From Sphingopyxis sp. YF1 (GTDB lineage: Bacteria; Pseudomonadota; Alphaproteobacteria; Sphingomonadales; Sphingomonadaceae), in contig NZ_CP033204.1 of NCBI RefSeq assembly GCF_022701295.1, positions 4,303,406 to 4,367,405 on the forward strand: a stretch of DNA of 64,000 bases, written 5' to 3'. A program made the translations under genes and the position numbers. Shown piece by piece: positions 1,525 through 18,301 of the stretch. The number at the start of each line of letters is the position of its first letter. The first letter of the stretch is position 1. The notes below the pieces were generated by a model. The model was not told where the DNA came from. It ran no database searches and saw nothing but the letters and a program-made list of their open reading frames with translations.

Positions 1525-1921
1525 TCCATCCTCCCACATATTTATGTTCAACAATTTTCGCGACCCCGCGCGATCGCGCGTGGGCGGCCCCTGCAATCGG
1601 AGACGGCGATATTCAATATCGTTAATGTTTCTTGGCATAAACTTCTCCGGTCGTCAATTTTCGATATAAATCACTGTTTTATATCATATAAAATTCAAGG
1701 CATGATCCGAAATCAATCGGATTATGGTTTCTGATCGCGAATCTACAATAACGATAATGATCAAGTTTCAGCCTGCGGCCTAGAGGAGATTCGGGTCGCT
1801 TTTGTGACGAAGTCAGCGCGCCGGGATTCGCCTTGGGCGGGCCGCCGCAGACCTGATTGTTCGGCGAAGCGGGGGGGGGCGTGCGGGTCCGAAGCGCCGA
1901 CCGGCTAGGCAGCGACCGGCA
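1525..1921. other. Intergenic leader of the TonB receptor
   Basis: No convincing gene lies in this stretch between the fructokinase stop and the receptor start. The part from about 1600 to 1760 is conspicuously AT-rich compared with the flanking genes, as expected for a promoter region. It holds the operator copy at 1748-1759. Confidence 0.7.
1748..1759 (+). promoter_or_regulatory. LacI-family operator, copy upstream of TonB receptor
   Basis: The sequence ATAACGATAATG is identical to the core of the operators at 6949-6960 and 9549-9560 (minus strand) and differs by one base from the core at 6818-6829. Its position upstream of the receptor gene makes it a probable binding site for the LacI-family protein encoded at 7031-8089. 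Assignment to that regulator is inference from proximity and from the copy in front of the regulator gene itself. Confidence 0.7.
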
Positions 1922-2833
1922 TCATGTCGCTCCCTTTTTCGCGGCGTGCCGGGCCAGCTCGATTGCGCCGACCAGCGCGGGCGGCGGGTCGGTCAGTTGC
2001 GGCGCGACGAGGAAGGCGTGCGGGTCGGCGGCCGCCGCCCCCGTCGCATACCCCGCCATCATCCGGGCGAAATCGGCGCGGACGCGGTCGAGCAGAAAGG
2101 GAGGACTCATCACGCCGCCGCCGAGGATGACACGCTCGACCCGCAGCATATAGGCCAGGTTTGTGCACAGCGCGGCGATATAGTGGCTTGCGACGCTCCA
2201 GCCCGGGTGACCGGCGTCCAGCGTTTCGGCGGGGTGTTGCCACCGCGCCAGCATCGCCGGACCGGCGGCGAGTCCTTCGAGGCAATCGCCATGGAAGGGG
2301 CAGTTGCCCGCGAAGGCATCCCCCGGCGCCCGCGATACGCGCATATGTCCCATCTCGGCATGCGGGAATATGCGACGCACCGCGCCGTCGAGCATGACGC
2401 CGACGCCGATGCCCGTACCGATCGTGACATAAGCGAAATTCGCGACGTTCCGGGCTGCGCCATGCAGGCCTTCGCCCAGCGCCGCGGCGTTCACGTCGGT
2501 GTCGATCGCCACCGGCGCGCCGGTGGCGTCTTTCACGGCGCCGAGGATGTCCGCGTCCGACCAGCCCGCTTTCGGGGTCCCGCCGATCCGCCCATATGCC
2601 GCGGCCGCAGGGTCCAGTTCGACGGGGCCGAATGCGGCCAGTCCCGCGCCCGCCGGCGTGCCGTGGCGGTCGACCGCGCGCGCAAAGAACCGCCTCATGT
2701 CGCTAAATGTCTCCGCCGGCGTGCGGGTCGGGAAATGCGCCTGTTCCAATATGCGCCCGTCCGCTGCGCTGAGAGCGCAGATGAATTTGGTGCCGCCGGC
2801 CTCGATCGCGGCGAATGGTGCGGAACTGGACAT
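1922..2833 (-). CDS. ROK-family fructokinase
   Basis: Predicted ATP-dependent sugar kinase of 303 residues, most likely phosphorylating fructose to fructose-6-phosphate in the cytoplasm. The start ATG at 2833 has GGGAG upstream and is followed by the ATP-binding segment AAIEAGGTKFICAL. The zinc-site region reads CPFHGDCLEGLAAGPA, the form typical of bacterial fructokinases (YdhR/ScrK type) rather than glucokinases or NagC repressors. No DNA-binding domain is present. An in-frame extension to 2995 is possible but lacks a good ribosome site. It is the last gene of the FAD oxidoreductase-SDR-mannitol dehydrogenase series, and a fructokinase is exactly what those dehydrogenases need downstream. 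Confidence 0.9.
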   Translation of the reverse strand: MSSSAPFAAIEAGGTKFICALSAADGRILEQAHFPTRTPAETFSDMRRFFARAVDRHGTPAGAGLAAFGPVELDPAAAAYGRIGGTPKAGWSDADILGAVKDATGAPVAIDTDVNAAALGEGLHGAARNVANFAYVTIGTGIGVGVMLDGAVRRIFPHAEMGHMRVSRAPGDAFAGNCPFHGDCLEGLAAGPAMLARWQHPAETLDAGHPGWSVASHYIAALCTNLAYMLRVERVILGGGVMSPPFLLDRVRADFARMMAGYATGAAAADPHAFLVAPQLTDPPPALVGAIELARHAAKKGAT

Positions 2834-2951
2834 GAAATCTCCCAAACCTCTTTCCGGGGAACCGGCTGCTTCGGTCGCGATACGGCGGCGAGGGGCGCGG
2901 CCCCTCTTCCCCCTGTTGCGACGATCCGCGCGGACCGTCCCCATCCGCTCT

Positions 2952-4436
2952 TCAGCTTTCGATGTAGCGCGCCAGCGCTGCGTCGATTCCCTCACTCCAG
3001 ATCAGCGACAGCGCTTCCGCGAAGGCTGCTGCAAATTCATGATGCCCCGCCAGATCCCCATAGATCGATCGCATGCCGATCCATAGCGCGGGATCGCCCT
3101 GCGCGGCGCGCGCGGCGGCCGTCAGTTCGTCCCAGGCGGGGTCGTTCGGCGCGATCGGCGCACCCCGCGCGTCGGTGCCATGGCAATAACGGCACCACAG
3201 GGCGCTCGCGAGGACTAGCCCTCGGGGCACCGCGCCGCGCGCCAGATTGTCGCGGATCGACGGAATGATGAATTTGGGCTGGCGGTTCGAGCCGTCGAAG
3301 CACAGGCGGCGCGTGGTGTCGGCGATCTCGGGGTTGGCGAAGCGTCCGGCGACCTGCCGCTTGTAGGCCGCAAGGTCTTGGCCCGGTACCGGCGGGACGA
3401 CGGGCAGGATCTCGTCGTTCGTCACCTTGTCGAGGAAGGCTGCGACAAGGCCATTGCCCATCGCTTCATGCACCTGGTCGATCCCGAGCAGTGCCGCCGG
3501 ATAGGCGAGGATGGCATGCCCGCCGTTGAGGATGCGGATTTTCATCGTTTCGAAGGCGTGCACCTCATCGGTGAAGGTCACGCCGACTTTGTCGAGCGCG
3601 GGGCGCCCCGCGGCAAATCGGTCCTCCAGCACCCACTGGCGAAAGGGCTCGCAGGTCACCGGCACCGGGTCGTCGGCAAGGCTGAAGCGCGCTGCCATCG
3701 CGCGTTCGTGCGGACCGGTGGCGGGGGCAATCCGGTCGACCATGCCGTTCGGAAAGGTCGCATGGGCGGCGATCCAGTCGGCGAGCCCGGGGTCGGACAG
3801 GCGCGCGAGGCCGATGGTCGCGGCCCGTGCGGCGTCGCCGTTGCCGGGCAGGTTGTCGCACGACAATATGGTGAAGGGGGCGACGCCAGCGGCGCGGCGT
3901 CGTCCCAGCGCTGCGACGATTGCGCCGAACGCGGTGGTGGGGCGATCGGGTGCGGCGGCGTCCGCGATCATGGCGGGGTCGCCGGGATCGAAGCGGCCGG
4001 TCGCGGGATCGATGAAATAGCCGCCTTCGGTCACCGTCAGCGAGACGATGCGGATTTCCGGCCGGCTCATCGCCGCGATCAGCGGGGCGTTCGATGGCGT
4101 GACGGCGATGAAGTCGGTCATCGCACCGACGCGCCGGGCGCGCTTGCCGTCGGGGTCGAGCTCGATCACCGTCGACAGGCAATCCTGCGCTTTCAGCGCG
4201 TCGCGCATCGCGGCGTCGGCCGGGCGCACGCCCGCCCCGAGGATCGCCCAGTCGTGATCCTCTCCGCGCGCGAACAGGTCGTCCAGATACACCGCCATAT
4301 GCGCGCGGTGAAAATTTCCGAGGCCGATATGGACGATCCCGGGCGTCAGACCTCGACGATCGTAGCGGGGCTGGGAAACGTTCAACTCATGCCATCCAGT
4401 TGCCGCCGTCGACGCCAAAGGTCTGGGCGACGACAT
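2952..4436 (-). CDS. mtlK: Mannitol 2-dehydrogenase family (long-chain polyol dehydrogenase)
   Basis: NAD-dependent polyol dehydrogenase of 494 residues, expected to oxidise D-mannitol to D-fructose. The Rossmann segment is GIVHIGLGNFHRAH (residues 33-46). PNGMVDRI and the catalytic motif KIRILNGGH follow, giving K299, N304 and H307, with the same spacing as the catalytic Lys-Asn-His of Pseudomonas M2DH. The ATG at 4436 overlaps the upstream SDR gene by 50 bases and gives an N-terminus of normal family length. A TTG at 4385, just after the SDR stop, is the alternative start. The family also contains fructuronate reductases (UxuB/UxaB), but a fructokinase and a sorbitol dehydrogenase as neighbours favour mannitol. 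Confidence 0.88.
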   Translation of the reverse strand: MSSPRPLASTAATGWHELNVSQPRYDRRGLTPGIVHIGLGNFHRAHMAVYLDDLFARGEDHDWAILGAGVRPADAAMRDALKAQDCLSTVIELDPDGKRARRVGAMTDFIAVTPSNAPLIAAMSRPEIRIVSLTVTEGGYFIDPATGRFDPGDPAMIADAAAPDRPTTAFGAIVAALGRRRAAGVAPFTILSCDNLPGNGDAARAATIGLARLSDPGLADWIAAHATFPNGMVDRIAPATGPHERAMAARFSLADDPVPVTCEPFRQWVLEDRFAAGRPALDKVGVTFTDEVHAFETMKIRILNGGHAILAYPAALLGIDQVHEAMGNGLVAAFLDKVTNDEILPVVPPVPGQDLAAYKRQVAGRFANPEIADTTRRLCFDGSNRQPKFIIPSIRDNLARGAVPRGLVLASALWCRYCHGTDARGAPIAPNDPAWDELTAAARAAQGDPALWIGMRSIYGDLAGHHEFAAAFAEALSLIWSEGIDAALARYIES

Positions 4437-5157
4437 AGTCCGCCTCGGCGGTGGCGAGAAAGATCGCCATGCCCGTCAGGTCGGCGGCCCGGGCCGTGCG
4501 GCCGATCGGCACCGATGTGCCGACCAGATGCTTCTTCTCGCCGGCGGGGCGGCCTTCCAGCCTGGCGAAATGGGCATCGACGCCGTCCCAATGCTCGCCG
4601 TCGACGACGCCGGGGGCGATCGCGTTCACGTTGATGCCATGGCGGATCAGGTCCAGCCCGGCGGACTGGGTCATGCTGATCACCGCCGCCTTGGTCGCAC
4701 AATAGACCGCGACCAGCGGCTCGCCGCGGCGTCCGGCCTGACTGGCCATGTTGATGATCTTGCCGCCTGCGCCGCGCGCAATCATGTGCCGCGCCGCCGC
4801 CTGCAGACAAAAGAGGCTGCCTGCGACATTCACCGCAAAGGCGCGGTCGTAATCCGCGCGGGCGATGTCGGCGATCGGCGCGGCGGTGAACAGCGCGGCA
4901 TTGTTGATCAAAATGTCGATCTTGCCCAGCTTCGCGATCGCTTCGGCAAAGCCGTCGTCGATCGAGCCCTGCCGGGTGACGTCCATCTCGACCGCCATCG
5001 CGTGCGGGCCGAGCGCTGCGGCCGCCGCGCGGACCCCTGCGCCGTCGATGTCCGCGAGCGCCACCGCGGCGCCCTCGGCGATGTAGGCGCGCGCGAATTC
5101 CAGCCCGATGCCGCGCGCCGCGCCCGTGATCAGCGCGGTTTTCCCCTCAAGTCGCAT
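4387..5157 (-). CDS. smoS: Sorbitol (L-iditol 2-) dehydrogenase, SDR family
   Basis: Short-chain dehydrogenase of 256 residues, predicted to oxidise D-sorbitol (and possibly galactitol or L-iditol) to the ketose with NAD. It has the cofactor motif TGAARGIG (residues 11-18), the NNAAL motif and the catalytic triad S139, Y152 and K156 (YCATK). The segments NAIAPGVVDGEHWDGVDA and the C-terminal GVDGGNWM closely resemble the Rhodobacter SmoS/PolS sorbitol dehydrogenase as I remember it. GGAAAGG lies upstream of the start. It is the second gene of the polyol operon and overlaps the mannitol dehydrogenase start. Confidence 0.88.
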   Translation of the reverse strand: MRLEGKTALITGAARGIGLEFARAYIAEGAAVALADIDGAGVRAAAAALGPHAMAVEMDVTRQGSIDDGFAEAIAKLGKIDILINNAALFTAAPIADIARADYDRAFAVNVAGSLFCLQAAARHMIARGAGGKIINMASQAGRRGEPLVAVYCATKAAVISMTQSAGLDLIRHGINVNAIAPGVVDGEHWDGVDAHFARLEGRPAGEKKHLVGTSVPIGRTARAADLTGMAIFLATAEADYVVAQTFGVDGGNWMA

Positions 5158-5205
5158 GCTGGAAACCTTTCCTCGCCCCTGGCGTGAAACCGGGTGACCA
5201 CGCGC

Positions 5206-6585
5206 TCACGCCACGCAATCCGCCGCTTTCACCGCCGGATAGGTCGTCAGCTCGATCGGCGCGCCGGGATTGACGACATTGTCGAAGTCGACGACCGCGC
5301 CCTGCGCGATAAGGGTTTCGCGCAGATGCGTGAAATCCATCGCGGACATGCTGTAGCCGTGCCGACTGGCCAGCGCCGCGGCGGTGCCGGCGCCCTGGCC
5401 CATCGCCATGCAGGTCGCCATCACGCGGACCGACCCGAACCCCGGGCCGTCGGCGCTGAGGCATCGGCCCGCGGTGACGAGGTTGACGCTGCCCTGCGGC
5501 ACGAGGCAGCGGAAGGGGACATTATATTCCTGCCGCGGGATGACGAGATCATTCTGCTCGTTGCTGTCCGAGGCGTGGATGTCGATGACGTGGGCGCCCT
5601 TGGCAATCGTGTCGGGAAAGGCCTTCGGCGTCAGGATGTCGTCCTTCTGGAGTTCGTAGAGACCGACGATGTGATAGGATTCGCGCACCCCGGTCTGGAT
5701 GCCCGACTTCGCCAGCCAGCAGTCGCGGAATTCCGGGAACTCGCGCCGCAATATCTCGATGATGAGCTGGAGGTTCTCGCGCAGGCTGCACTCGGTGCGC
5801 GTGAACCACTCGGGGTCGCTTGCATCGGTCGCCTCGCGGAGCAGGTTGATGCTGACCATGCCGTCGCGGAAGAATTTGTTGATCCACGGTCCGCCGAAGA
5901 TCGGGATGTCGCCCTCGGCGTTGAGCTCGAGCAGGCGGCCGCGGATCGTGTCGGAAACGGGGAGCATCCCGTCGACCGCGTCCCTGAACAGATAATCGAG
6001 CGCATCGGTGTCGACGCCGCCCAGCTGGAACCACAGCGTCGCCGGTTGCAGCACGTCGCCCTTGGTCGTCGGGAAACCCGCGGCGCGCACCAGGTCGGCG
6101 TCGCCCGTGCAGTCGACGAAGACCTTGGCGCCGTATGCGACGCGGCCCGCCTTGTTCTGCACGATGACATGGGTGACGCGGTCCCCCTCGGTGACGCAGT
6201 CGGAGAACCAGCTGTGATAGAGCAGTGTCACCCCGCTCTCGAGCAGCAAGCGCTGCGCCGCGAGCTTCAGGATTTCGTCGTTGACCGGATAATTGCCGCT
6301 TTCCAGCGATACGTCGGCGCCGCCGAGTTCGGCCGCCTTGCGAAGAAGCTCGAACGGAATGCCGCCGATGTGCTGCTTGCCGAAGTGGCGGAATTCGCTG
6401 ATCGGCGTCACCAGCGCGCTCGTCGACATGCCGCCGACAAAGCCGTAGCGTTCGATCAGCAGGGTCTTCGCGCCGTTGCGCGCCGCGGCCACGGCCGCGA
6501 TGAGGCCCGCGGGGCCTCCGCCGCACACGACGACGTCGTAGCAGCCGGCGACGGGTACGTCCCTGCCGGGTTCCCGGATCGACAT
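5206..6585 (-). CDS. FAD-dependent oxidoreductase, unknown substrate
   Basis: A 459-residue flavoprotein of the FAD_oxidored (PF12831-like) class. The FAD-binding motif YDVVVCGGGPAGLIAA is near the N-terminus, followed by IERYGFVGGMSTSAL. A second segment, FVDCTGDADLV, and a C-terminal GQGAGTAAAL complete the fold. No signal peptide is seen, so it should be cytoplasmic. The start MSIREPG at 6585 is preferred because related proteins begin like this; an in-frame GTG at 6609 is possible. It is the first gene of the polyol operon with an operator about 230 bp upstream. The reaction is not known to me, and its place before two NAD-linked polyol dehydrogenases does not explain why an FAD enzyme is needed. 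Confidence 0.85.
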   Translation of the reverse strand: MSIREPGRDVPVAGCYDVVVCGGGPAGLIAAVAAARNGAKTLLIERYGFVGGMSTSALVTPISEFRHFGKQHIGGIPFELLRKAAELGGADVSLESGNYPVNDEILKLAAQRLLLESGVTLLYHSWFSDCVTEGDRVTHVIVQNKAGRVAYGAKVFVDCTGDADLVRAAGFPTTKGDVLQPATLWFQLGGVDTDALDYLFRDAVDGMLPVSDTIRGRLLELNAEGDIPIFGGPWINKFFRDGMVSINLLREATDASDPEWFTRTECSLRENLQLIIEILRREFPEFRDCWLAKSGIQTGVRESYHIVGLYELQKDDILTPKAFPDTIAKGAHVIDIHASDSNEQNDLVIPRQEYNVPFRCLVPQGSVNLVTAGRCLSADGPGFGSVRVMATCMAMGQGAGTAAALASRHGYSMSAMDFTHLRETLIAQGAVVDFDNVVNPGAPIELTTYPAVKAADCVA

Positions 6586-6816
6586 ATTCTCTTCAGATTT
6601 CACCGACACATCTTCTTCCTGTTGATCCGTTGCCGTTCGATGGATGCGGGTAAGACCCCGCCGCCGGCCCGGTTTCGCCCTGCGGGCGATCTGGCCGGTG
6701 AGCGAAGTCCGGTCGCTGTGCTGCGGCCGGCGGTGCGTTGCCCGATCCTGTTGCGCCTCCCCCTCACGCGGCCCGCCCGATCCTTGCCGTCAAGGGTGAG
6801 GCTTTGCTTCTTAAAA

Positions 6817-6834
6817 GATAGCGATAATGTTATC
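6817..6834 (+). promoter_or_regulatory. LacI-family operator upstream of the polyol operon
   Basis: The 18-bp imperfect palindrome GATAGCGATAATGTTATC has outer arms GATA/TATC and shares 11 of 12 core bases with the other three copies. It lies on the side of the divergent region nearer the FAD oxidoreductase start and probably controls that leftward operon. Confidence 0.75.
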
Positions 6835-6947
6835 TGGCATATGTCTGAGCGTTCGTCAACGCTGCAAAATTTCAATGAAAATCAATGATATTTTGCGGTT
6901 CTTGGATGTGTCTGCGATGAAGGGAGGGGATTTGCGGTGCAATATGC

Positions 6948-6965
6948 AATAACGATAATGTTATT
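6948..6965 (+). promoter_or_regulatory. LacI-family operator upstream of the regulator gene
   Basis: AATAACGATAATGTTATT is an 18-bp palindrome in which 14 of 18 positions are symmetric, as expected for a LacI dimer. It ends 65 bp before the regulator ATG at 7031, suggesting autoregulation. It contains the exact core ATAACGATAATG found at 1748-1759 and 9549-9560. Confidence 0.8.
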
Positions 6966-7030
6966 TCATCATCGCCTTGGCACGCCGCGCGCGCGTGGCT
7001 AAACGTCAATCTGGAATTGGAGGCGACAGC

Positions 7031-8089
7031 ATGACGGAGGGAACCAACGGGCGTCGTCCGCCAACGCTGCAGGATCTGGCGGCCGCCGTCGGCCTGACGG
7101 CCAACACCATCTCGCGCGCGCTCAATGACAAGCCCGGGGTCAGCGCGACCACGCGGGCGCTGATCAAGGCCGAGGCGGAGCGTCTCGGTTATGTCCCGAA
7201 CGTCCATGCGCGCTCGCTCGTGCTGGGGTCGCGCAAGACGATCGGCGTGATCGTCACCAACATCTCCAATCCCTTCTTCGCTGATCTGGTCAGCGAGGTC
7301 GAGCTGCAGGCGCAGCAGGCCGGCTACACCGTGCTGTTGCTGCTTTCGTACGAATCGGCCGAGCGCGAGCGCGATGCAATCAGCCGGGCCCTGCGCTCGG
7401 GGCTCGATGGCCTCATCGCGGCGCCGGTGCAGGAGCGATCCGACGCCTGGACGCCGGTGATCAAGGCGGGCATCCCACTCGTTCTGGTCAGTCGCGAGCT
7501 TCCCGAACTCGGTGTCGACTTCTTTTCGACCGATAATGAGGCGGGCATCCGGCTGACGACCGATGCGGTGCTGGCGGAGGGGGCGCGCGACGTCGTCCTC
7601 CTTGACGAAGACATGCCATTCTCGACCATCCGGCTCCGTATCGAGGGGTTTCGCCGCTCGCTCGAGCAGCACGGATTGTCCTTCGACCCGCGCAATCATC
7701 TCGCGCTCGTCCCGCCCGCCCGCTCGTTCCGCGTGTCGCAGTCGTGGCACGCCGACGACGCCTATCGCGTCGCCAGCGACCTGCTCGACCGCGGCCGCCG
7801 GCCCGATGCCTTCGTCGTCGGGGACGATTATTATGCGCTCGGCCTGTATCGCGCGCTGCGCGAGCGCGGGATCGAGATTCCCCGCGACGTGCTGGTGATG
7901 GGATGGGGCAATCATCCCTTCACCCGCTTCATGGAGCCGCCGCTGTCGACCTTGCTGCTGCCCTTCCAGGATGTCGCCAGTCGCGCGACGCGGCGGCTCC
8001 TCGATCGTATCGAGGGGCGCGCCGACGGCCGGGTCGTCACCGAGCGCATCGTTCCGGAACTCGTGCTGCGCGCGTCGAGCCTGCGGTGA
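7031..8089 (+). CDS. LacI-family transcriptional regulator of the polyol locus
   Basis: A 352-residue LacI/GalR-type regulator. The start ATG at 7031 has GGAGG seven bases upstream; an upstream in-frame ATG at 6977 lies closer to the operator and lacks this site. The helix-turn-helix reads PTLQDLAAAVGLTANTISRA, then the hinge segment YVPNVHARSL and a periplasmic-binding-protein-like effector domain starting at TIGVIVTNISNPFF. It is divergent from the polyol operon and convergent with the MFS gene. Operators of one type occur in front of all these units, so it probably represses them and is released by a polyol or by fructose. The effector cannot be told from sequence. Confidence 0.92.
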   Translation: MTEGTNGRRPPTLQDLAAAVGLTANTISRALNDKPGVSATTRALIKAEAERLGYVPNVHARSLVLGSRKTIGVIVTNISNPFFADLVSEVELQAQQAGYTVLLLLSYESAERERDAISRALRSGLDGLIAAPVQERSDAWTPVIKAGIPLVLVSRELPELGVDFFSTDNEAGIRLTTDAVLAEGARDVVLLDEDMPFSTIRLRIEGFRRSLEQHGLSFDPRNHLALVPPARSFRVSQSWHADDAYRVASDLLDRGRRPDAFVVGDDYYALGLYRALRERGIEIPRDVLVMGWGNHPFTRFMEPPLSTLLLPFQDVASRATRRLLDRIEGRADGRVVTERIVPELVLRASSLR

Positions 8090-8120
8090 TCGCGCTTCAC
8101 CGGCGCGCCCGAATCGGGCG

Positions 8121-9416
8121 TTAGTCCGCAGTCGCCGCTGCGCGTTTCGGCCGTCCGCGTCCGATCACCGCGATCATGATGATCGCCGAAACGGGGTGCA
8201 GCAGCGCCAGTCCGGCGAAGAGCGCCACATAGTCGAACTGTGCGAGGATCGGTCCGGCGAGCAGGTTGAGGAGCAGCGACGTGCTCGCGCCGACTGCGCC
8301 CAATATGCCGACCGCCGATGCGTTGACCTTCACCGGGAACAGGCCCGCGAGGAGCACGTTGAAACCGACGAACCACGCCTGACAGACCGCGACGACGATC
8401 GTGATGATCAGCAGCGCCATCGCGGCGCTGGACGCCGAGGTGATGAAGCCGCCCAGCGGCATGAGCGCGGCGGTGATCGCGAACAACCAAAGCTGGACAC
8501 GGATCGGATCGTGGCCGCGCGCGGCATAGCGATCGACGGTGCGGCCCAGCGCGACGCAGGCGATCATCGCGACGATATAGGGAATGCCGCCGACGAGGCC
8601 GAGTTCGGACAGCGACAGGCCGACGCGTTCCTGCAGATAGCCGGGGATCCAGAACAGGTAGAAATACCAGACCGGGTCGCTGATCATGCGCGCCGCGATG
8701 ATCGCCCAATATTTCCGGTCGCGGAGCAGGTCGGCGACCGACGCCGAATCCTCTTCGGCCTCGACTTCGGCGTCAGCTTCGGTGCCGGCCGCGTCGGACC
8801 CGGTGCGCGAGGCGTGCCCGGTGTCGGTGAACCACCACAGGATGCCGACCGCGACGCCGATCACGCCCGGGATGATGAAAGCCGCGCGCCAGCCGATGCC
8901 GGTCGCCAGCAACGCGACCAGCGGCGGCGCGAGGATGGCGCCGAGATTGCCGGCGGGCAGGACGATGCTGATCGCCAGGCTGCGGCGTTCGACGGGGACC
9001 CAGTTGAGGATGGCGCGCTGGATGATCGGAAAGACGCCGGGCTCGGTCGCGCCGAGCAGCGCGCGCGACGCCGCAAGCTGCGAAAAGCTGTGCGACAGGC
9101 CGGAGGCGATGTTCGCGACCGACCAGCCGATCGCAAAAACGGCCATGCAGATGCGGGTGCCGAAGCGTTCGATGAGCCGCCCGCTGGCGATGTACATCAC
9201 AATATAGGGAAGCATGAAGGCGAAGGTCAGCAGCGAATAGGCCGTGTCGTCGAACGCCAGCTCGGTCTTGACGATCGGCTTGAGAATGGAAAGCGTCTGC
9301 CGGTCGAAATAGTTGAGGACGACGAGGCTCATCAGCAGCCCGAGGACGAGCACCACCTTCAGTGGCAGTTTCTTCCTGGGGGCGGTGTCGGGGCTGGTGG
9401 TTGCGGCGTCGGTCAT
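8121..9416 (-). CDS. MFS transporter (anion:cation symporter-like)
   Basis: A 431-residue inner-membrane transporter with about 12 hydrophobic segments. The first transmembrane region carries NYFDRQTLSIL, typical of the ExuT/GudP-like ACS group of the major facilitator superfamily. A charged loop near the middle (EADAEVEAEEDSASV) separates the two halves. GGGAA precedes the ATG. An operator of the polyol regulon lies about 130 bp upstream, so it is probably the inner-membrane importer for the same substrate as the TonB receptor. ACS members often carry sugar acids, so a sugar acid rather than a neutral polyol remains possible. Its stop lies 31 bp from that of the convergent regulator gene. 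Confidence 0.9.
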   Translation of the reverse strand: MTDAATTSPDTAPRKKLPLKVVLVLGLLMSLVVLNYFDRQTLSILKPIVKTELAFDDTAYSLLTFAFMLPYIVMYIASGRLIERFGTRICMAVFAIGWSVANIASGLSHSFSQLAASRALLGATEPGVFPIIQRAILNWVPVERRSLAISIVLPAGNLGAILAPPLVALLATGIGWRAAFIIPGVIGVAVGILWWFTDTGHASRTGSDAAGTEADAEVEAEEDSASVADLLRDRKYWAIIAARMISDPVWYFYLFWIPGYLQERVGLSLSELGLVGGIPYIVAMIACVALGRTVDRYAARGHDPIRVQLWLFAITAALMPLGGFITSASSAAMALLIITIVVAVCQAWFVGFNVLLAGLFPVKVNASAVGILGAVGASTSLLLNLLAGPILAQFDYVALFAGLALLHPVSAIIMIAVIGRGRPKRAAATAD

Positions 9417-9875
9417 CTGGCGGTTCCCATCAATTGTGTCGGCGTCGCCCCGGGTGGGCGGGCGGGGAGCTTGGCGATGCAGCGGCGCGGCGCGAGGATC
9501 GTCGCCCTGTCGTCGATCGCTGCACCGGTTTCCTCATTCCTCCACCATCATTATCGTTATCTTAAATCTGGAAATCTCGATCGTCAATTGCCCGGTATGC
9601 AAGCCGAATATCCACATAAATTCATTAGATATCATACGAATGTAAGAGATTTGACTCGCAGCCCATCGCATGGCAGGATACATTATCGATACCGAATTTT
9701 GAACTGTCGGATCGGGCGGGTGGGGAATTGGGTGATCGTTTCGGCGGCAATCCTCTCCCGGGCTGCGCGGCGCGCCGTGCCAGCATGGCATTCTGCCTTA
9801 AAGCGGGGTTATCATGTCGCCCATGTTTCATTCCATCCGGCGGCGCTTCCCCGCCGACGCATCGTGTCCGACGCC
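9417..9875. other. Divergent intergenic region between MFS and PhoD genes
   Basis: No credible gene is present. The section 9535-9720 is AT-rich and holds an operator copy (9547-9561) that serves the leftward MFS gene. The remainder upstream of the phosphatase gene shows no motif I can name. Confidence 0.65.
9547..9561 (-). promoter_or_regulatory. LacI-family operator upstream of the MFS gene
   Basis: On the minus strand the sequence is GATAACGATAATGAT, containing the exact 12-base core seen at 1748 and 6949. It sits about 130 bp before the MFS start codon. The divergent phosphatase gene begins 315 bp away, so the MFS gene is the likely target. Confidence 0.72.
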
Positions 9876-11438
9876 ATGACGGCGCGCCTGTTCAATCGCC
9901 GCACCCTGCTCGTCGCGGGCGGGCAAGCTGCCTTGCTCGCCGGACTCGCCGGCGCACCGGTGCTCGCTGCCCCGAAATTCCTGGAGGACCCTTTCTCGCT
10001 GGGGGTCGCATCGGGGGATCCAACCCCCGACGGTTTCGTGATCTGGACCCGTCTCGCGCCCCGGCCGCTCGAACCGCACGGCGGCATGCCCGCCGAACTG
10101 GTCGAGCTCGCGTGGGAAGTGGCCGAAGACGACGGCTTTCGGCGAATCGTCCGCGCCGGTACCGCCTTCGCGCGGCCCGAACTGGCGCATGCGGTCCATG
10201 TCGAGGTCTTCGGTCTGGGCAGCCATCGGCGATACTGGTACCGCTTCGTCGTCGACGGGATCCGCAGCGATACCGGCACCGTCCGTACCGCGCCGGCGGC
10301 GGGCGCCGCGGTGGACCGGCTGCGCATCGCGGTTGCCGGCTGCCAGCAATATGAACGCGGCCTCTTCACCGCGTGGCGCCACATCGGGCAGGAAGCCGAC
10401 CTCGATTTCGTCTATCACTATGGCGACTATATCTATGAGGGGAAAGCCGCGGGGAGCGCCGCGGCGGGACAGGTTCCCATCGTCCGCCGCCACACGGGTG
10501 ACGAAATCTACAGCCTCGACGACTATCGCCAGCGCTACGCGCTCTACAAGGTCGACCCCGATCTCAGGGCCGCACACGCCGCCGCCGCCTTCCTGCCGTC
10601 GTTCGACGATCATGAGGTCGAAAACGACTGGGCGGGCGATCTGGACTCGAGCCGCACCCCGCCCGAGATTTTCCGGCTTCGCCGCGCCGCGGCGATGCAG
10701 GCCTGGTACGAGCATATGCCCGTCCGGCCGAGCCAGTTCCCGCAATATGGCCTGCCGCGCGCTTACCGCCGCCTCGACTTCGGCCGGCTGTTGCGCGTCA
10801 ACCTCCTCGACAAGCGAAGCTATCGCAGCATCCGCCTGTGCGAACGGCCCGGCGACGGCAATTGCGTCGACCGGCGCGACCACCCCGATACGATGCTCGG
10901 CGAAGCGCAGGAGCGCTGGCTCGGCGAGGGACTCGACGGCGGCGCGACCTGGAACATGCTCGGGCTCGGCGGCCTTGTCATGCCGTTCGACCGGTCGGCG
11001 CAGAAGGTCCCGTCGAACGGCTTCGACAATTGGACCGGCTATCCCGACGCGCGCGAACGGCTTTTGGCGATGATCCGCGATCGCAAGCTCGACAACGTCG
11101 TGATCACCGGCGGCGACAGTCACATGTTCTTCATCGGCCATCTGCCGTCGCGGCGCGACGACCTTGAAAGCGCGCCGGCGGCGACCGAACTCCACGCGAC
11201 CTCGATCAGTTCGACGAGCAGCAACGGCATGCCGATCGGACCCGATCCGCGGGCGGCGACCAATCCGCACATGGCGACGATCCACGACCAGCGGGGCTAT
11301 CTGCTGTGCGATATCGACGCGAAGGGCTGGTCGGCCAGCCTGCGCGTCGTCGATCAGGTGCTCACCCCGGGCGGTGCGATCAGCACGCTTGCGCGCTACG
11401 GCATCCGGCCCGACCGGCCGGGTGTGTCGAGGCTTTGA
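9876..11438 (+). CDS. phoD: PhoD-like alkaline phosphatase
   Basis: A 520-residue secreted phosphatase/phosphodiesterase of the PhoD family. The N-terminus MTARLFNRRTLLVAGGQ has a twin-arginine pair before a hydrophobic stretch, indicating Tat export and fitting a metalloenzyme folded in the cytoplasm. After an N-terminal beta domain (FSLGVASGDPTPDGFVIWTR), the metal-site motifs appear in order: VAGCQQYE, HYGDYIYEG, FDDHEVENDW and a C-terminal GGDSHMFF. The ATG at 9876 is chosen because it directly precedes the Tat signal; an in-frame GTG at 9864 is possible. No strong ribosome site is visible for either. A class A phosphatase gene follows 24 bp downstream. Confidence 0.92.
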   Translation: MTARLFNRRTLLVAGGQAALLAGLAGAPVLAAPKFLEDPFSLGVASGDPTPDGFVIWTRLAPRPLEPHGGMPAELVELAWEVAEDDGFRRIVRAGTAFARPELAHAVHVEVFGLGSHRRYWYRFVVDGIRSDTGTVRTAPAAGAAVDRLRIAVAGCQQYERGLFTAWRHIGQEADLDFVYHYGDYIYEGKAAGSAAAGQVPIVRRHTGDEIYSLDDYRQRYALYKVDPDLRAAHAAAAFLPSFDDHEVENDWAGDLDSSRTPPEIFRLRRAAAMQAWYEHMPVRPSQFPQYGLPRAYRRLDFGRLLRVNLLDKRSYRSIRLCERPGDGNCVDRRDHPDTMLGEAQERWLGEGLDGGATWNMLGLGGLVMPFDRSAQKVPSNGFDNWTGYPDARERLLAMIRDRKLDNVVITGGDSHMFFIGHLPSRRDDLESAPAATELHATSISSTSSNGMPIGPDPRAATNPHMATIHDQRGYLLCDIDAKGWSASLRVVDQVLTPGGAISTLARYGIRPDRPGVSRL

Positions 11439-11462
11439 ACGGGATCATCGGGAAGGGATCGA

Positions 11463-12290
11463 ATGATGCGTCGCAAACTTGCCTGTGCGGTCGTCGCGGC
11501 CCTTTTGCTTGCCGGGGCGGCGGACTACGCCGCGGCTCCGGCTTATGGCGGCTATCTCACGCCGGGAGAATTCGACGTGACGTCGGTGCTCGAGCCGGCA
11601 CCGCGTCCGGGCGATCCGCGGTATGATACCGACCGGAAGATTTTCCGCGCGACGCGGCGCCTTGCGGGATCGGCCCGCTGGGATTTGGCGACGAATGATG
11701 CCGACACAGGCGTGCCGGCGTTGCTGCGCGACTTCAGCTGTGCGGTGGGCGTCGACCTGACCCCGGAAAACGCGCCGAAGCTCGTCGCCGTGGTGCGCCG
11801 CGCCGGGCTCGATACCGCCGACCAGACCCGGACCGCCAAGGAGACCTATCGGCGCGGGCGTCCCTTCACGATCGACAAGGGGAGGATCTGCCAGCCGCAG
11901 GCCGAACTCTACGACAAGAAGGCGGGGCGGATGAGCTACGACTATCCGTCGGGGCATACCACGTGGGGTTGGACCTGGGCGCTCGTCCTGTCGTCGGTCG
12001 CGCCCGACCGGGCGCAGCAGATCCTCGAACGCGGCCGCGCCTATGGCGACAGCCGCTTCGTCTGCGGCGCGCACAATGAAAGCGCGGTCGAAGCGGGCAT
12101 GCTCTCGGCCTCTTCGACGATGGTGCTGGTCGCCACCAAGGCCGATTATCAGCGCGATCTGGCCGCGGCCCGCGACGAACTGGCCGCGCTTCGTGCCAGC
12201 GCGCCGCCGGCGGACAATTGCGCGGTCGAAACCGCGCTGCTGAAACAGCGCGTCATGCCGCGGCTCGACCCCGCGCCGCGGCGACGCTGA
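11463..12290 (+). CDS. Class A non-specific acid phosphatase (PAP2 superfamily)
   Basis: A 275-residue secreted phosphatase with an N-terminal signal peptide. Two of the three conserved blocks of class A acid phosphatases are intact: KETYRRGRP (K-x6-RP) and PSGH. The third reads SRFVCGAHNESA. It keeps the Arg and the nucleophile His, but the Asp four residues after that His is replaced by Ala. It follows the PhoD-like gene by 24 bp on the same strand, so the two are probably co-transcribed as a phosphate-scavenging pair. The C-terminal 50 residues are charged and look coiled-coil-like. Whether the Ala variant is fully active is not clear from sequence. Confidence 0.88.
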   Translation: MMRRKLACAVVAALLLAGAADYAAAPAYGGYLTPGEFDVTSVLEPAPRPGDPRYDTDRKIFRATRRLAGSARWDLATNDADTGVPALLRDFSCAVGVDLTPENAPKLVAVVRRAGLDTADQTRTAKETYRRGRPFTIDKGRICQPQAELYDKKAGRMSYDYPSGHTTWGWTWALVLSSVAPDRAQQILERGRAYGDSRFVCGAHNESAVEAGMLSASSTMVLVATKADYQRDLAAARDELAALRASAPPADNCAVETALLKQRVMPRLDPAPRRR

Positions 12291-12311
12291 GGTCCGGCGC
12301 CGGTCCTTTCG

Positions 12312-14525
12312 TCAGCCGGCGCTCGACCAGGTGGCCAGCGCGACCTCGCGTTCGGCTTCGTCGTCGTTCCGCAGCGTCAGGGTCCAGGTCGCTTCGGTGA
12401 CCGGCCGATCGACGAAGATCGACCGGAATATCTGCCCGGCTTCGGGCGTGCCGGTCCGGTTGCTGGCGGCGACCGCGCCTGCGGCATCGAGCAGCGTTGC
12501 CGATACGCGCTCCGCGGCGACGAAGGTCAGGCCGAGGTTGCGGGCGCCGCGGACGGGTAGGGGCACATGCATCGTCGCCCCCGGTGCCAGCGTCACGATC
12601 GTCGAGAAATCGGGTGTCGCGCGATCGCCGGCCGTCGGCGCGGCATCGGCGGGCTCGTCGAAACCGAGCAGCATGACGCGGCCCGACGGTCCGGCGCCCG
12701 CTTTCTGCTTTGCCGGCCCGACTGCGATCCGCGGCTTCACGAAGGACGAGAAAATCGCGGGTGTGGCCATGTCGATGTGGATGACGTCCTCCTGCGCATG
12801 ATCCTCGATCGTCCAGGTCGCGGAAGGCACTGTGACCACGCCGTCGTTGCGGTCGAACATGTAGCAGACGGCGGGGAGCGGGTTGCCGGCGAGGACCGAG
12901 AATTCCACCCCCTTGCGGTTGACATGTTCCGCGTTGAACCGTGCCACCACGCTTGGACGCAGTTCGCGCATCGCGTTCATCGTCCGGTCGGTGGCCTCCA
13001 GCGGGGCGCTGATCAGGTCGGCGCAGCGGCTGCCCATATTGGGGGTGCCGAGCATGACGAGATGCGCGACCTGCGGCTTGCCGTCGGGATAGGTCGGCAT
13101 CGTGGCGTGGATGTAGCGGCGGCTGATCAGCCCGCCCATCGAATGCGCGACGAGGTCGACGTGCCAGGCGTTGCGGTCCTTCTGGGCGTAGTTGATGTAG
13201 CTGCGCAGCTCGCTGGCGTTCTCGGCGATCGTGTTGGTCGGGCCGAGGTTGCCGACGAACTCGCCCGTGCTCATCTTGCCATGCTCGGCGACCTGGCCCA
13301 CCGGAAAGGCCTTCCAGTCGTAGCTGTGTGCGGTGGTCAGGATATTCTGCCAGCTTTCCCACGCTTGCCAGGTCGACCACAGGCCGTGCACGAGCACGAC
13401 CGGCTTGGGTGCGACCTTCAGATTCTTGGTCGTTTCGTCGACCGTCTTGCCGGCATCTAGGACCTCGGCCTTGATCCGCTGCGTCACGCGCGGGCGCCCG
13501 TCATCGTACCAGGCATAGCCCGCGCTGTCCCATTCGAAGCTCACCTTGCGCTCCTCGCCCGCGGGCACGGTGATGGTGCGTTCCTCGAGCAGTCCGTCGG
13601 GACGCGCGCCGTCCCATTTGTCACCCTTGTAGGTGTCGCGGAACTTGACCGTCGCCGATTTCTCTTCGGGGCCGTCGTTGGCGACGACCGCGGTGATCTG
13701 GACCAGATTGCCGTCGATCGTTCCCGTCTGCTCGACGATTTCGCCCCATTCGCCCCAGTTGGGAAAGCGCATATGCTCGAACTTGAGGTTGGCCAGCCGC
13801 AGGTCGCCGCCGCAGCGGCGCAGGTTCCAGCGCAGGGTTTCGGTCACGCCAAAGGCGGAGACCGAATGGCTGCCGGTCAGCCGGTCGGGCGCCCCGGGCT
13901 GGATCCGATCCTCGCCGCCGCTCGAAAAGCGCACCGCGTCGATCGTCGTCGGCATGTCGGCGATGCTGTCGCTCACCCCCGCCTTGGCGGTGCACTGGCC
14001 GCTGAAACTCGACGAATTCGATCCCGAAACCTTGCCCTCGACCTCGGGCAAGCGGACACCGACGGTGTAGGTGCCGTCCGAATCGAGGCTGACGTCGACC
14101 TCGGCTTCCAGCCCGCTGCCGTTCGCGCTGGTCTTGCTCTGGCTGACGAAGCTGCCCGACATCGACCGCGGCGTGCGTTCGTGCGGGCAGATATAGCGAT
14201 CCTCGGCGGTCCTGGTCTCGGTCGACACCGAGGTCAGGCTGATGTTCGCGCGGCCCGTGCTGAGCTCCGAATCGGGTACGGCCCGCACCGCGACCTGCGC
14301 CGCATAGTCATAGGTCATCGACCAGTTGGTCGTTTCGGTGCCCTTGCCCGACACGCGCTGTTCGGTCTTGGCGTCGCTGTGCGACTGGTTGCGCGTATAT
14401 TGCACCGACCCCGTCCAGCCGCGCGCGCATTGCGAGGCGGCCGCCATCTTGGCGGCAACCGGCGCCGCGGCGCCCGACAGCATCAGCCCGGCGGCGATCG
14501 AGTGCAGGCTGCGTAGCAAGGTCAT
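12312..14525 (-). CDS. Secreted alpha/beta hydrolase, lipase-like, multidomain
   Basis: A 737-residue exported protein with an N-terminal signal peptide and AGGAGA before the ATG. The first 250 residues are beta-rich with no family I can name. A CARDB-like beta-sandwich (about 275-355, VQITAVVANDGPEEKSATVK) precedes an alpha/beta hydrolase domain beginning PKPVVLVHGLWSTW. That domain holds the nucleophile elbow VAHSMGGLISR and LVMLGTPNMGS, as in lipases and PGAP1-type esterases. A C-terminal beta domain of about 150 residues follows. It is convergent with the acid phosphatase gene. The substrate is unknown; a lipid or polyester ester is plausible. Confidence 0.82.
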   Translation of the reverse strand: MTLLRSLHSIAAGLMLSGAAAPVAAKMAAASQCARGWTGSVQYTRNQSHSDAKTEQRVSGKGTETTNWSMTYDYAAQVAVRAVPDSELSTGRANISLTSVSTETRTAEDRYICPHERTPRSMSGSFVSQSKTSANGSGLEAEVDVSLDSDGTYTVGVRLPEVEGKVSGSNSSSFSGQCTAKAGVSDSIADMPTTIDAVRFSSGGEDRIQPGAPDRLTGSHSVSAFGVTETLRWNLRRCGGDLRLANLKFEHMRFPNWGEWGEIVEQTGTIDGNLVQITAVVANDGPEEKSATVKFRDTYKGDKWDGARPDGLLEERTITVPAGEERKVSFEWDSAGYAWYDDGRPRVTQRIKAEVLDAGKTVDETTKNLKVAPKPVVLVHGLWSTWQAWESWQNILTTAHSYDWKAFPVGQVAEHGKMSTGEFVGNLGPTNTIAENASELRSYINYAQKDRNAWHVDLVAHSMGGLISRRYIHATMPTYPDGKPQVAHLVMLGTPNMGSRCADLISAPLEATDRTMNAMRELRPSVVARFNAEHVNRKGVEFSVLAGNPLPAVCYMFDRNDGVVTVPSATWTIEDHAQEDVIHIDMATPAIFSSFVKPRIAVGPAKQKAGAGPSGRVMLLGFDEPADAAPTAGDRATPDFSTIVTLAPGATMHVPLPVRGARNLGLTFVAAERVSATLLDAAGAVAASNRTGTPEAGQIFRSIFVDRPVTEATWTLTLRNDDEAEREVALATWSSAG

Positions 14526-14722
14526 CGGGGTCTCCTGATCGATGGGGAGCCGATGCGTCGCGGATGCGCCGGCGGCTCGGGGCGCGAGCGGACGTAGGGC
14601 GCGCCGCGCCGCCGGGCATTGCCGGTGCTGCCAAGCCGGGGAACCGTGCGACGGAAACCGCGCGCGGGCGACGGGACCGGTCCGCGGTGCGACGAACCCC
14701 GCCGTCGCGATCGATCAGGCGA

Positions 14723-16198
14723 TCAGAAGAGTCCCGGCAGCTCGCGCTGCGCCGCGCTGGGGCGTTCGGGGCGCAGCATGTCCTGCACCACGCGCGCCTC
14801 GCCGGGCGCGCGCCCGGTCGATGCGACGCGCGAGTCGATGCCGGCGATCGGCGCGCCGCAGCTGCGCCCGGCGAGGAAATCGAGCGCGGCGCGCAGCGAA
14901 GGTTCGTTCGGGTCGCCGAGCTGGAGCGCCAGATTGTCGCCCGCGGCGCAGCTGTTGGGAATCTTGGACGCCAGCCCGCCGTAATAGTCGCTCTGCCCCG
15001 ACGCATTGCCCGTGGCAAAGGCGATCACGCGCATGCGGTCGTCGCATTCGGACTTGTCCACCGCGATCTGGCCCACCGGCTTGCCATAGGTGTTGCCGCC
15101 GACCAGCGTCATGTTGGTGCCGAGGTAGGGTAGCATGCCGTTGATCACCAGCTCGCTCGCCGAGGCGGTCGAATCGGTGCCGATGAAGGCGATGCGCGTC
15201 GGAGCGATCGATTCGGGCTGGCTGGTGAAGAAATGCCGCTCGTTCTCGATCGATTTCGACGGGCGGAAATCGGTGCGCGAGAAAAGCTCGCTCGCGTTGC
15301 GGTTGCGGCCGAGCAGGTCGCCCATCAGCTCGGCGGTGCTGACCAGCCCGCCGCCATTGTAGCGGAAGTCGATGACGATGTCGGTCACGCCCTGGTTGCG
15401 GAAATTGAGGAAGGCGGCGCGCAACTGCGGGTTCGCCGAACTGATGAAGGTACGAAGGTTCAGATAGCCGTAGCTCTTGCCGCCCTCGCTGATGATCTTC
15501 GCGCCATAGCGGTCCGAAACCGGGTCAAGCGCATAATCGGCCTTGGCGACGGTGACCTCGCGCTGGTTGCCGCCGCTGGCGTCGAGAATGCGCAGTACGC
15601 GCGTGACCCCGGGATCGTTCGGCCCGAGCGCGGCGATGATGCCGTCGGTGCCCTCGCTCGCGACGATGCTCGACACGGTGCGCAGATTCGCGGCCGACGT
15701 TCCGATCGCGATGATCTGCGTCCCGCGGTCGATCCCGGCGTTCAGCGCGGGGGCATTTTCATAGGCTTCGGCGATCACGACGCGCTGGGTTCCGGCATTA
15801 TACGCCAGCCGGACCCCGAAGCCGGCGCTCGACCCGCTCTGGAAAAAGGCATTCTCCTCCGCGATCGAGGTGATGTAGGTGAAGAAACGATCCTTCTTCA
15901 GCAGCCGCGCCGGTGCGACGAGCGCGTCGATATAGGATTGCACGCTGCTGTGGACCGCGGGGTTGACGTTGGTCGCGACGTCGTTCGGGAACAGATACCA
16001 TTCGTCGATCACCGCCTTGGCAAAGGCCTGGCGCGCCGACAGGCCGCAACCCGCCGTCGGGGTCGGGGTGGGCGAGGGAGTCGGGGTGACGGTGACCGGC
16101 GGGGCGCTGCCTCCGCCACCTCCACCGCCGCCGCACGATGCCAGCGTGAAGGCGGCCAGCGCGATCGCGGCGACCGATTGGCTGAATTTGGACCCCAT
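14723..16198 (-). CDS. S41-family peptidase, predicted lipoprotein
   Basis: A 491-residue tail-specific-type serine protease. The signal peptide ends in a lipobox, LASC with Cys22, followed by a glycine run and a Pro-Thr linker (VTPTPSPTPTPT), so it should be anchored in the membrane and exposed to the periplasm. A PDZ-like region lies around residues 125-210. The peptidase core follows with YGYLNLRTF, IDFRYNGGG, the nucleophile segment STASASELV and GNTYGKPVGQ holding the general-base Lys. About 200 bp without a visible gene separate it from the hydrolase gene downstream. Confidence 0.88.
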   Translation of the reverse strand: MGSKFSQSVAAIALAAFTLASCGGGGGGGGSAPPVTVTPTPSPTPTPTAGCGLSARQAFAKAVIDEWYLFPNDVATNVNPAVHSSVQSYIDALVAPARLLKKDRFFTYITSIAEENAFFQSGSSAGFGVRLAYNAGTQRVVIAEAYENAPALNAGIDRGTQIIAIGTSAANLRTVSSIVASEGTDGIIAALGPNDPGVTRVLRILDASGGNQREVTVAKADYALDPVSDRYGAKIISEGGKSYGYLNLRTFISSANPQLRAAFLNFRNQGVTDIVIDFRYNGGGLVSTAELMGDLLGRNRNASELFSRTDFRPSKSIENERHFFTSQPESIAPTRIAFIGTDSTASASELVINGMLPYLGTNMTLVGGNTYGKPVGQIAVDKSECDDRMRVIAFATGNASGQSDYYGGLASKIPNSCAAGDNLALQLGDPNEPSLRAALDFLAGRSCGAPIAGIDSRVASTGRAPGEARVVQDMLRPERPSAAQRELPGLF

Positions 16199-16238
16199 GA
16201 CGCTGTTCCCCCGGTTCGTCTGTCCTGACGTTAGTCGT

Positions 16239-16940
16239 TCATTCGTCCGCGTCCGCGGCGCGGCCCTTGAACCCCTGTGCGATCACGTAAAGTTCGGGCG
16301 AGCCCTTGCGGCTCGCCGGCGGCTTGGCGTGCTTCACGCTCGTGAAATTCTGCTTGAGCAGGGTTAGCAGTTCGCGGTCGGCGCCGCCCGCGAACACCTT
16401 GGCGACAAAGGTGCCGCCGGGCAGCAGGTTCTGCACCGCGAAATCGGCGGCGGTCTCGGCGAGCCCGATCGTGCGCAAATGGTCGGTCTGCGGATGGCCG
16501 ACGGTGTTCGCCGCCATGTCCGAAATGACGAGGTCGGGGGCGCTGCCCAGCGCCTCGATCAGCGCGTCGGGGGCGGCATCGTCCATAAAGTCCATCTCGA
16601 GGATCTCGACCCCCTCGAGCGGTTCGCACGGCAACAGATCGATCCCCGCGACACGTGCCCGCGGGTTCGCCTTGCGCACCACCTGCGACCAGCCGCCGGG
16701 GGTGATTCCCAGGTCGACCACCGCGCGCGCCTTTTTGAGCAGACCGAATTTCTCGTCGAGTTCGATCAGCTTGTACGCGGCGCGCGACCGGTACCCCTCG
16801 GCCTGCGCGCGCCGGACATAGGGGTCGTTGAGTTGCCGCTGCAGCCAGCGCGTCGATGACGTGCTGCGCCGTTTCGCGGTCTTGACGCGGACGTGCAGGC
16901 CGCCGCGTCCGCCGCCGCCCTTGCTCTTGCCTTGACTCAT
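16239..16940 (-). CDS. rlmE: 23S rRNA (uridine-2'-O)-methyltransferase RlmE (FtsJ/RrmJ)
   Basis: A 233-residue methyltransferase that 2'-O-methylates U2552 of 23S rRNA on the 50S subunit with SAM. The catalytic Lys-Asp-Lys set is visible as K57 (SRAAYKL), D141 ([10 protein letters not shown]) and K181 (VAKVF). The SAM loop reads [12 protein letters not shown] where Escherichia coli has DLGAAPGGWSQ. The basic, glycine-rich N-terminus ([14 protein letters not shown]) is longer than in E. coli and probably binds rRNA. Its ATG overlaps the stop of the upstream ppx gene by four bases (ATGA), indicating translational coupling. Confidence 0.95.
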
Positions 16941-18031: not shown

Positions 18032-18190
18032 GGCTATTGTACCTGTTTCTCACGCGCCCGAAGAGCGGACGTGCACTTGGGCCAAGACTAGGCGCGCGGG
18101 CGGACGATGGCAACCCCGGGGGGACGGGCGCGCGCGGCGGCCGACCCAATGGCGGGTTTGGGGTGGGAAGCGGACGTTCCCGCCTGACTT

Positions 18191-18263
18191 CGTCATCCCG
18201 GACTTGATCCGGGATCCATAGCAGCGTCGAAGTCATGGACCCCGGATCAAGTTCGGGGCGACG
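18191..18263. repeat. REP-like intergenic palindrome (CGTCATCCCGG type)
   Basis: Two 27-base arms, 18191-18217 and 18237-18263, are inverted copies with only a few mismatches; they begin CGTCATCCCGG and end CGGGGCGACG. The loop is 19 bases. A related palindrome occurs at 56266-56340. Such elements are common between genes in sphingomonads. Confidence 0.8.
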
Positions 18264-18301
18264 ATGAAAGACAAGCCCGTAGCCGGTCGAAGCGACCCAG
18301 C

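Follow-up and report, generated by a model that had tools for sequence, protein, structure and literature searches.

We analysed a stretch of 64,000 nucleotides from Sphingopyxis sp. YF1 (assembly GCF_022701295.1, contig NZ_CP033204.1, positions 4,303,406-4,367,405 of the forward strand; this whole stretch is called the window, and positions are counted within it), near the left edge of which a gene cluster surrounds a LacI-family regulator gene. Our subject is a set of paired operator sites in this cluster, and the possibility that the regulator bridges them into a loop of about 133 base pairs (bp). The genes and sites are listed in Table 1. The regulator carries both expected domains (PF00356 at 39.7 bits, cut-off 27; PF13377 at 96.1 bits, cut-off 26.5). 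The short-chain dehydrogenase (SDR) scores 410.8 bits against a cut-off of 338 for the NCBIfam equivalog of L-iditol 2-dehydrogenase, and its solved relatives are sorbitol dehydrogenases; the ROK kinase reaches 232.6 bits against the 400 set for ScrK, and the mannitol-dehydrogenase family enzyme (MDH) and the MFS transporter likewise fall below the cut-offs of their nearest NCBIfam models. The PAP2 gene is probably in one operon with the PhoD gene.

Table 1. Genes, operators and promoter-like elements of the cluster (FAD, flavin adenine dinucleotide; mismatches are counted against ACAWTAWCGWTAWTGT)
Feature	Position	Strand	Remarks
TonB-dependent receptor, 960 aa in genome	1..1524, past left window edge	-	Pfam TonB barrel and plug, full gene (L138)
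TonB proximal operator TCAATATCGTTAATGT	1613..1628		1 mismatch
TonB promoter-like element TTGAC-N15-TGCCA	1633..1657	-	
TonB distal operator ACAATAACGATAATGA	1745..1760		1 mismatch; includes core 1748-1759; 132 bp from proximal
ROK-family sugar kinase	1922..2833	-	Nearest ScrK fructokinase, below cut-off
MDH	2952..4436	-	Solved relatives are mannitol 2-dehydrogenase
SDR, sorbitol/L-iditol 2-dehydrogenase type	4387..5157	-	Above NCBIfam equivalog cut-off
FAD_oxidored (PF12831) enzyme	5206..6609	-	First gene of operon, most conserved member
FAD-operon proximal operator AAGATAGCGATAATGT	6815..6830		3 mismatches; includes core 6818-6829
FAD-operon promoter-like element TTGAC-N15-TGCCA	6835..6859	-	
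FAD-operon distal operator, also LacI-gene operator GCAATAACGATAATGT	6946..6961		1 mismatch; includes core 6949-6960; 131 bp from proximal
Probable LacI promoter TTGGCA-N17-TAAACG	6977..7005	+	Read from sequence and alignment; distal operator just upstream
LacI-family regulator, 352 aa	7031..8089	+	Pfam LacI and Peripla_BP_3
MFS transporter (MFS_1)	8121..9416	-	Nearest NCBIfam TIGR00893, below cut-off
Operator before MFS, also PhoD distal operator TCATTATCGTTATCTT	9548..9563		3 mismatches; includes core 9549-9560
PhoD-unit promoter-like element TTGAC-N15-TGGCA	9651..9675	+	
PhoD proximal operator ACATTATCGATACCGA	9680..9695		3 mismatches; 132 bp from 9548
PhoD-like phosphatase	9876..11438	+	Pfam PhoD and PhoD_N
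PAP2-superfamily phosphatase	11463..12290	+	24 bases after PhoD

Operator sites and transcription units of the cluster

The four copies of a 12-base core reported in a preliminary description of this DNA are all in place, exact at 1748-1759 and 6949-6960 (plus strand) and at 9549-9560 (minus strand), and with one mismatch at 6818-6829 (plus strand). With up to two mismatches allowed, the window holds eight matches against 0.87 expected, a number that none of 100 shuffles reached; among the two-mismatch matches are weaker partner sites near 1616 (plus) and 9681 (minus), which the preliminary description had not included. The sites thereby form three pairs, starting at 1613/1745, 6815/6946 and 9548/9680, with distances of 132, 131 and 132 bp. 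Of 28 proteobacterial pairs, 22, including those of the TonB receptor, FAD oxidoreductase and PhoD genes, have the element TTGAC-N15-TGGCA (or TGCCA) 4-6 bp ahead of the proximal operator.

It had been proposed that one LacI-type operator joins four transcription units, namely the TonB receptor, a dehydrogenase-kinase operon, the regulator and the MFS gene. All four are retained (the MFS gene because of the nearby site, no regulated promoter having been identified for it), but their number is probably five, because the PhoD-PAP2 genes (9876-12290) have the same promoter and operator layout as the other units. Taken together, these units very probably form one regulon that shares the operator of the LacI-family protein. 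For the TonB gene of the window, which lies behind the ROK gene, a divergent partner was not found, yet both sites are present; this arrangement could be a recent leftover of rearrangement.

The operator itself is probably the CG-centred ACAWTAWC/GWTAWTGT (the slash marks the centre) rather than an 18-mer centred on T/A. The two best copies had been described as 18-bp palindromes, and such 18-mers do stand at 6817-6834 and 6948-6965, but they are imperfect, and their T/A centre is probably an offset register. Mean symmetry about CG and about T/A is 0.60 versus 0.47 in proximal sites, 0.65 versus 0.54 in actinobacterial sites and 0.58 versus 0.55 in distal sites. All 56 proteobacterial sites and 10 of the 12 actinobacterial ones have the central CG, counts obtained with a search pattern that is itself CG-centred, and because the sites had been found in this way we regard the centre as probable and not as proven. 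A census of LacI-family factors gives mostly even palindromes with a central CG (1173 of 1303 factors; PMC4052901), and this CG is contacted by a hinge leucine (PMC2978694).

The operator is half-symmetric, with a mean complementarity of 0.58-0.65 over 8 positions. The sites are also polar, because positions +/-5 are complementary in 0 of 56 proteobacterial sites and the ACATTA-like arm is directed away from the downstream gene in 33 of the 33 distal sites compared. The TonB-proximal site of locus L034, with TTCTACATTAAC and GATATTGTAGAA on the two sides of its centre, is near-symmetric about CG, and its inner 16 bases were found in four more loci. Distal sites (for example, 6946-6965) hold a second register offset by 6 bp, GATAAC GATAAT GTTATC, which is the 18-bp palindrome of the preliminary description.

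Specificity of the motif and distribution of the regulator

The exact 12-mer has three copies in the whole 4,367,405-base genome, every one in this cluster, and the three sites of the same genome within one mismatch of ACAWTAWCGWTAWTGT are also confined to it. Across 10 LacI-bearing genomes that were scanned, all 19 listed sites (at most one mismatch) are located within the LacI cluster or close to it, and one precedes a second TonB receptor 17 kb off. The motif signal is specific, and it is not due to chance. Genomes of the genus without this LacI hold 25 copies of the exact 12-mer, in 22 of 71 genomes (0 for a reversed control pattern); from 26 places outside clusters we retrieved 20 (19 from LacI-less genomes, one from genome G236), of which 14 fall into three groups of mutually homologous DNA (9, 2 and 3 loci), while the other 6 stand alone.

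Conservation of the motif upstream of orthologous genes, on which the preliminary description had made its regulon depend, was found: in 16 other proteobacterial loci with an orthologous LacI the motif stands mostly before the same genes. Six actinobacterial loci carry a LacI relative of 55-65% identity, and a similar site is present in all six, before other genes (shuffles gave 0.03 sites per locus at 3 mismatches). This specificity, together with conservation alongside the regulator in proteobacteria and actinobacteria, supports the assignment of the motif to the LacI protein. An alignment of 12 proteins drawn from the two groups shows a recognition helix NT[IV]SRAL, preceded by a variable residue (A, P or V), and a hinge, HARSL, that does not vary.

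The regulator occurs in 9 of 80 genomes of the genus (its own included). A search of the family returned 3 of 199 genomes, namely its own, one with a clear orthologue (G160, 87%) and one with a 34% paralogue; in the order it is present in at least 2 of 396 genomes, its own included, and in the family of a Pseudolysinimonas genome in at least 1 of 349, that genome itself. A scan of a genome collection (best 80 of 96 confirmed loci; L031-L049 were used, and L050-L110, at 24-32% identity, were left out) gave orthologues of 78-90% in Sphingopyxis, Hephaestia, Sphingomonas, Altererythrobacter, Microvirga, a metagenome-assembled genome of Hyphomicrobiales and Steroidobacter; the actinobacterial group of 55-65% comprises Pseudolysinimonas, Tessaracoccus, Microbacterium, Microlunatus, Homoserinibacter and Nakamurella. 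Because the hosts are scattered, we suggest that the regulator locus has spread horizontally.

The gene content of these loci was compared with matches of 35% identity or less hidden. The usual proteobacterial order is FAD-(SDR)-MDH-PhoD-ROK divergent from LacI, followed by MFS divergent from TonB. Fourteen of the 16 further proteobacterial loci have the FAD enzyme at 86-91% identity; L042 has it at 79%, and it was not seen in L041. Of the six actinobacterial loci, four have it at 74-81% (two cut by the locus end), and in two it was not seen. Once flanks had been fetched, 13 of 17 proteobacterial loci (window included) showed a PhoD orthologue; none was seen in L031, L033, L041 and L042, for which flanking sequence is limited. 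The PhoD gene of L137 comes after another TonB receptor and a PF04185 phosphoesterase, that of L139 after another TonB receptor. PAP2 relatives are present in L039 and L137. An orthologous SDR is found in only 5 of 13 other clusters with a FAD/LacI region, and the ROK proteins are only 38-43% identical. By these counts, membership is steadier for the FAD enzyme and PhoD than for the enzymes of polyol metabolism.

A variant cluster is seen in L040, where LacI and a different TonB receptor are separated (11093-18482) by an IclR-gluconolactonase-like fusion, a GMC oxidoreductase, another SDR, an HbpS-like protein and a mandelate-racemase-type enolase; L030 and L033 are similar by gene order. The actinobacterial locus L044 has an oligopeptide-type ABC operon and DUF6772 (by Pfam), an order that L043, L045, L047 and L048 share by position and from which L046 differs. 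The regulator stands downstream of DUF6772 on the same strand (8380-10000 in L044, the only locus where Pfam names the domain, and like places in the other four), and the actinobacterial pair therefore probably autoregulates the regulator. No mention of DUF6772 was found in the open literature that was searched.

Spacing of the paired operators

For each relevant intergenic region we determined the spacing of its two best CG-centred sites, requiring a separation of at least 40 bp. The intergenic bounds were set by hand, and the redundant loci L023, L025, L026, L027, L029 and L049 were replaced by their copies, which left a headline set of 39 regions (L031 once) and 40 rows for the shuffle control (L031 entered twice). 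A distance of 130-136 bp was obtained in 29 of the 39 regions. When regions were shuffled with the best site kept, a spacing of 129-136 bp arose in 3.3%; for 400 permuted half-sites the best 7-bp window held a mean of 6.8 of 39 regions, and the top five of these (24-26 regions) resemble the real half-site. Resolving ties by hand (in the second-receptor regions of L040 and L033) and omitting L042 and the FAD/LacI region of L039 changes the count to 31 of 37; we use the untouched 29 of 39 as the headline value.

The distance between operators is held more tightly than their distance to genes. In 11 TonB regions the standard deviation (SD) of the operator-operator distance is 1.0 bp versus 28.7 bp for the distance from operator to start codon, and in 12 FAD/LacI regions it is 4.6 bp versus 43.1 and 10.5 bp. 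The spacer of the window shares 52-60% with those of its relatives, to be compared with shuffled sequences, whose means were 51-53% and whose maxima were 58-60%. Among the six actinobacterial pairs, four are at 130-133 bp (the others at 158 and 110 bp). The spacing thus looks selected, because it is tight while start distances drift, the spacer sequence has diverged, the actinobacterial pairs stand before other genes and the TonB pair lacks a divergent partner; we conclude that operator spacing is very probably under selection.

Proposed looping, its alternatives and the pathway

We propose, with a probability of roughly 0.6, that the LacI-family repressor bridges the paired operators into a loop of about 133 bp, a reading drawn from the arrangement of the sites. 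The protein of 7031-8089 would repress five units (TonB, the FAD-SDR-MDH-ROK operon, its own gene, MFS and PhoD-PAP2) by binding two operators in each target intergenic region, 131-132 bp apart in the window. A dimer on the proximal operator, 4-6 bp past TTGAC-N15-TGGCA, would repress the promoter; a second dimer about 133 bp upstream would reinforce this by bridging, the small loop shutting the promoter, and an inducer from the substrate pathway would open the loop. The AT content averages 0.77 near mid-spacer (22 pairs), which is the position of the HU site in gal, and this AT-rich block is a candidate HU/IHF site at the loop apex or a candidate UP element. Such blocks can be seen at 6870-6915 of the window and in the FAD/LacI regions of L024, L034, L036 and L028; several Sphingopyxis FAD regions also have in common a ATATATCATAGNNATAAA-like stretch upstream of TTGAC.

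The closest known systems include two of Escherichia coli. LacI, with its operators O1, O2 and O3, forms loops between operator pairs, at distances other than those described here; it resembles the present protein in family and in its autoregulated or cluster-linked local regulation, and differs in forming a tetramer through a C-terminal tail that the present protein does not have. GalR and its gal repressosome (OE, OI) resemble the present system in having a LacI-family dimer with no lac-type tetramer tail and two operators flanking promoter elements. GalR loops at 113 bp with HU, and a study of its repression gives optima at 103, 113, 123 and 133 bp, one of which the present distance matches (PMC4693257). 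In contrast to gal, the paired layout here recurs at three regions of one cluster and at related loci of two phyla, and GalR operators are of an odd, non-canonical kind in the LacI-family census (PMC4052901). The local regulons of that RegPrecise-type census (Ravcheev and others 2014) share with ours the even CG palindrome, autoregulation and a catabolic cluster, whereas the intersite peaks named in its accessible text are at 13, 22 and 32 bp, with a class at about 133 bp not among them (PMC4052901). LacI-family regulons with loop-type operators are known; what is new is a long spacing that is conserved, in both phyla, at the majority of targets. The open literature, where we also looked for conserved long operator spacing, yielded no account of the regulon (closed journals were not covered).

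Several observations weigh against looping, or against reading the spacing as its signature. The regulator ends with ..ELVLRASSLR soon after the effector domain, and its match to LacI chains stops at 331 of 352 residues; without a tetramer tail, looping would depend on dimer contacts of the GalR kind or on a helper protein. Ten of the 39 regions have other best pairs (89, 110, 112, 117, 122, 123, 128, 138, 146 and 158 bp), of which those at 89 and 117 bp have an equally good candidate at 133 or 130 bp; in L039 (FAD/LacI) and L042 the second site, with 6 mismatches, does not convince (best pairs at 128 and 138 bp), and several partner sites match poorly (3-5 mismatches). For the outlier spacings, helical phasing is suggestive only (n = 6, with the period fitted afterwards and ties resolved by hand). 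Outside the 39 regions, the pair before the second TonB receptor of L137 (4700-5100) is 56 bp apart. Spacers of close relatives are up to 91% identical, a conservation by descent, so that many regions are not independent. Both promoter classes also have the TTGAC-N15-TGGCA layout, and may have originated by duplication. As an observation on L137 itself, its second TonB receptor gene has a perfect operator with a weaker one 56 bp off, and would be an extra member of the regulon as well as an exception in spacing.

An alternative explanation does without a loop: in it, two independent operators serve two divergent promoters and the distance of about 133 bp is inherited promoter geometry. Most pairs do lie between divergent genes, and a common descent of the FAD and TonB promoters, with their one layout, is possible, as is an inherited distance where spacers are alike. 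The TonB gene of the window, however, has both sites with no divergent partner (unless it is a rearrangement leftover), the four actinobacterial pairs at 130-133 bp lie between other genes, and start-codon distances drift by tens of bases where the spacing does not. We judge this explanation unlikely, although it carries more weight than the two that follow. The full model of the preliminary description combined single T/A-centred 18-bp operators with a complete regulon of four units, leading from polyol to fructose-6-phosphate. It can draw on the SDR and MDH, which are polyol dehydrogenases by family and by their solved relatives, on a ROK kinase nearest to fructokinase, and on distal sites that are nearly equal in symmetry about the two centres; but CG is the better centre of symmetry for the proximal and actinobacterial sites (a comparison not fully independent of the CG pattern by which they were found), the route does not accommodate the FAD enzyme and PhoD, which are the steadier members, and an orthologous SDR is absent from most other clusters. 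As a whole we find this model highly improbable. It is scarcely credible, finally, that the sites belong to a different regulator which binds GATAAT-like repeats, for example Fur or Zur, to which the presence of a TonB receptor could point: GATAAC GATAAT GTTATC does resemble the hexamer repeats of a Fur box, but a Fur regulon would be genome-wide whereas the listed near-perfect sites of 10 genomes are confined to LacI clusters or their vicinity, and in actinobacteria, where the target genes are others, the site is again found with the LacI relative. On the first of these grounds a Fur/Zur-type box was set aside.

The looping repressor may be part of a wider picture, which we put forward tentatively and at somewhat less than even odds: looping would be the standing mode at nearly all targets, with a loop length of about 133 bp kept across proteobacteria and actinobacteria while genes, promoter layout and spacer changed, and the regulon would serve an undescribed, FAD-oxidoreductase-centred pathway for a polyol-containing or phosphorylated compound. 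LacI-family looping is known in detail from a few E. coli operons; if this picture is true, rules of loop length and helical phase could be read from natural variation across many species and two phyla, and then tested. A very conserved, uncharacterised FAD oxidoreductase, accompanied by two phosphatases, would also stand at the centre of an undescribed catabolic pathway.

We do not accept the complete route from outer membrane to fructose-6-phosphate, because the SDR is patchy, the ROK kinase is far below the ScrK cut-off, the FAD enzyme has no assigned substrate and the two phosphatases, PhoD and PAP2, are out of keeping with a plain mannitol or sorbitol pathway. PhoD, PAP2, SDR, MDH and ROK make it reasonable to guess that the substrate is a polyol or a phosphoester containing one. 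The smo loci of Sinorhizobium likewise have a sorbitol-type SDR, a mannitol-type dehydrogenase and a fructokinase-like kinase adjacent to one another (PMC10433430), to which the present cluster adds a TonB receptor, an MFS transporter, a FAD oxidoreductase, PhoD and PAP2. A sequence search of the FAD oxidoreductase against solved structures gave only short matches, at the FAD-binding motif, its predicted fold (mean pLDDT, predicted local distance difference test score, of 64.2) was too poor for a fold search, and no characterised or solved close relative was found in this analysis. The best 120 of its 3078 homologues are 75-99% identical to it and come from several phyla, with Paenibacillus, Micromonospora and Devosia among them. 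Between the ROK and TonB genes of the window, at 1871-1879, lies a run of nine G, a possible variable tract.

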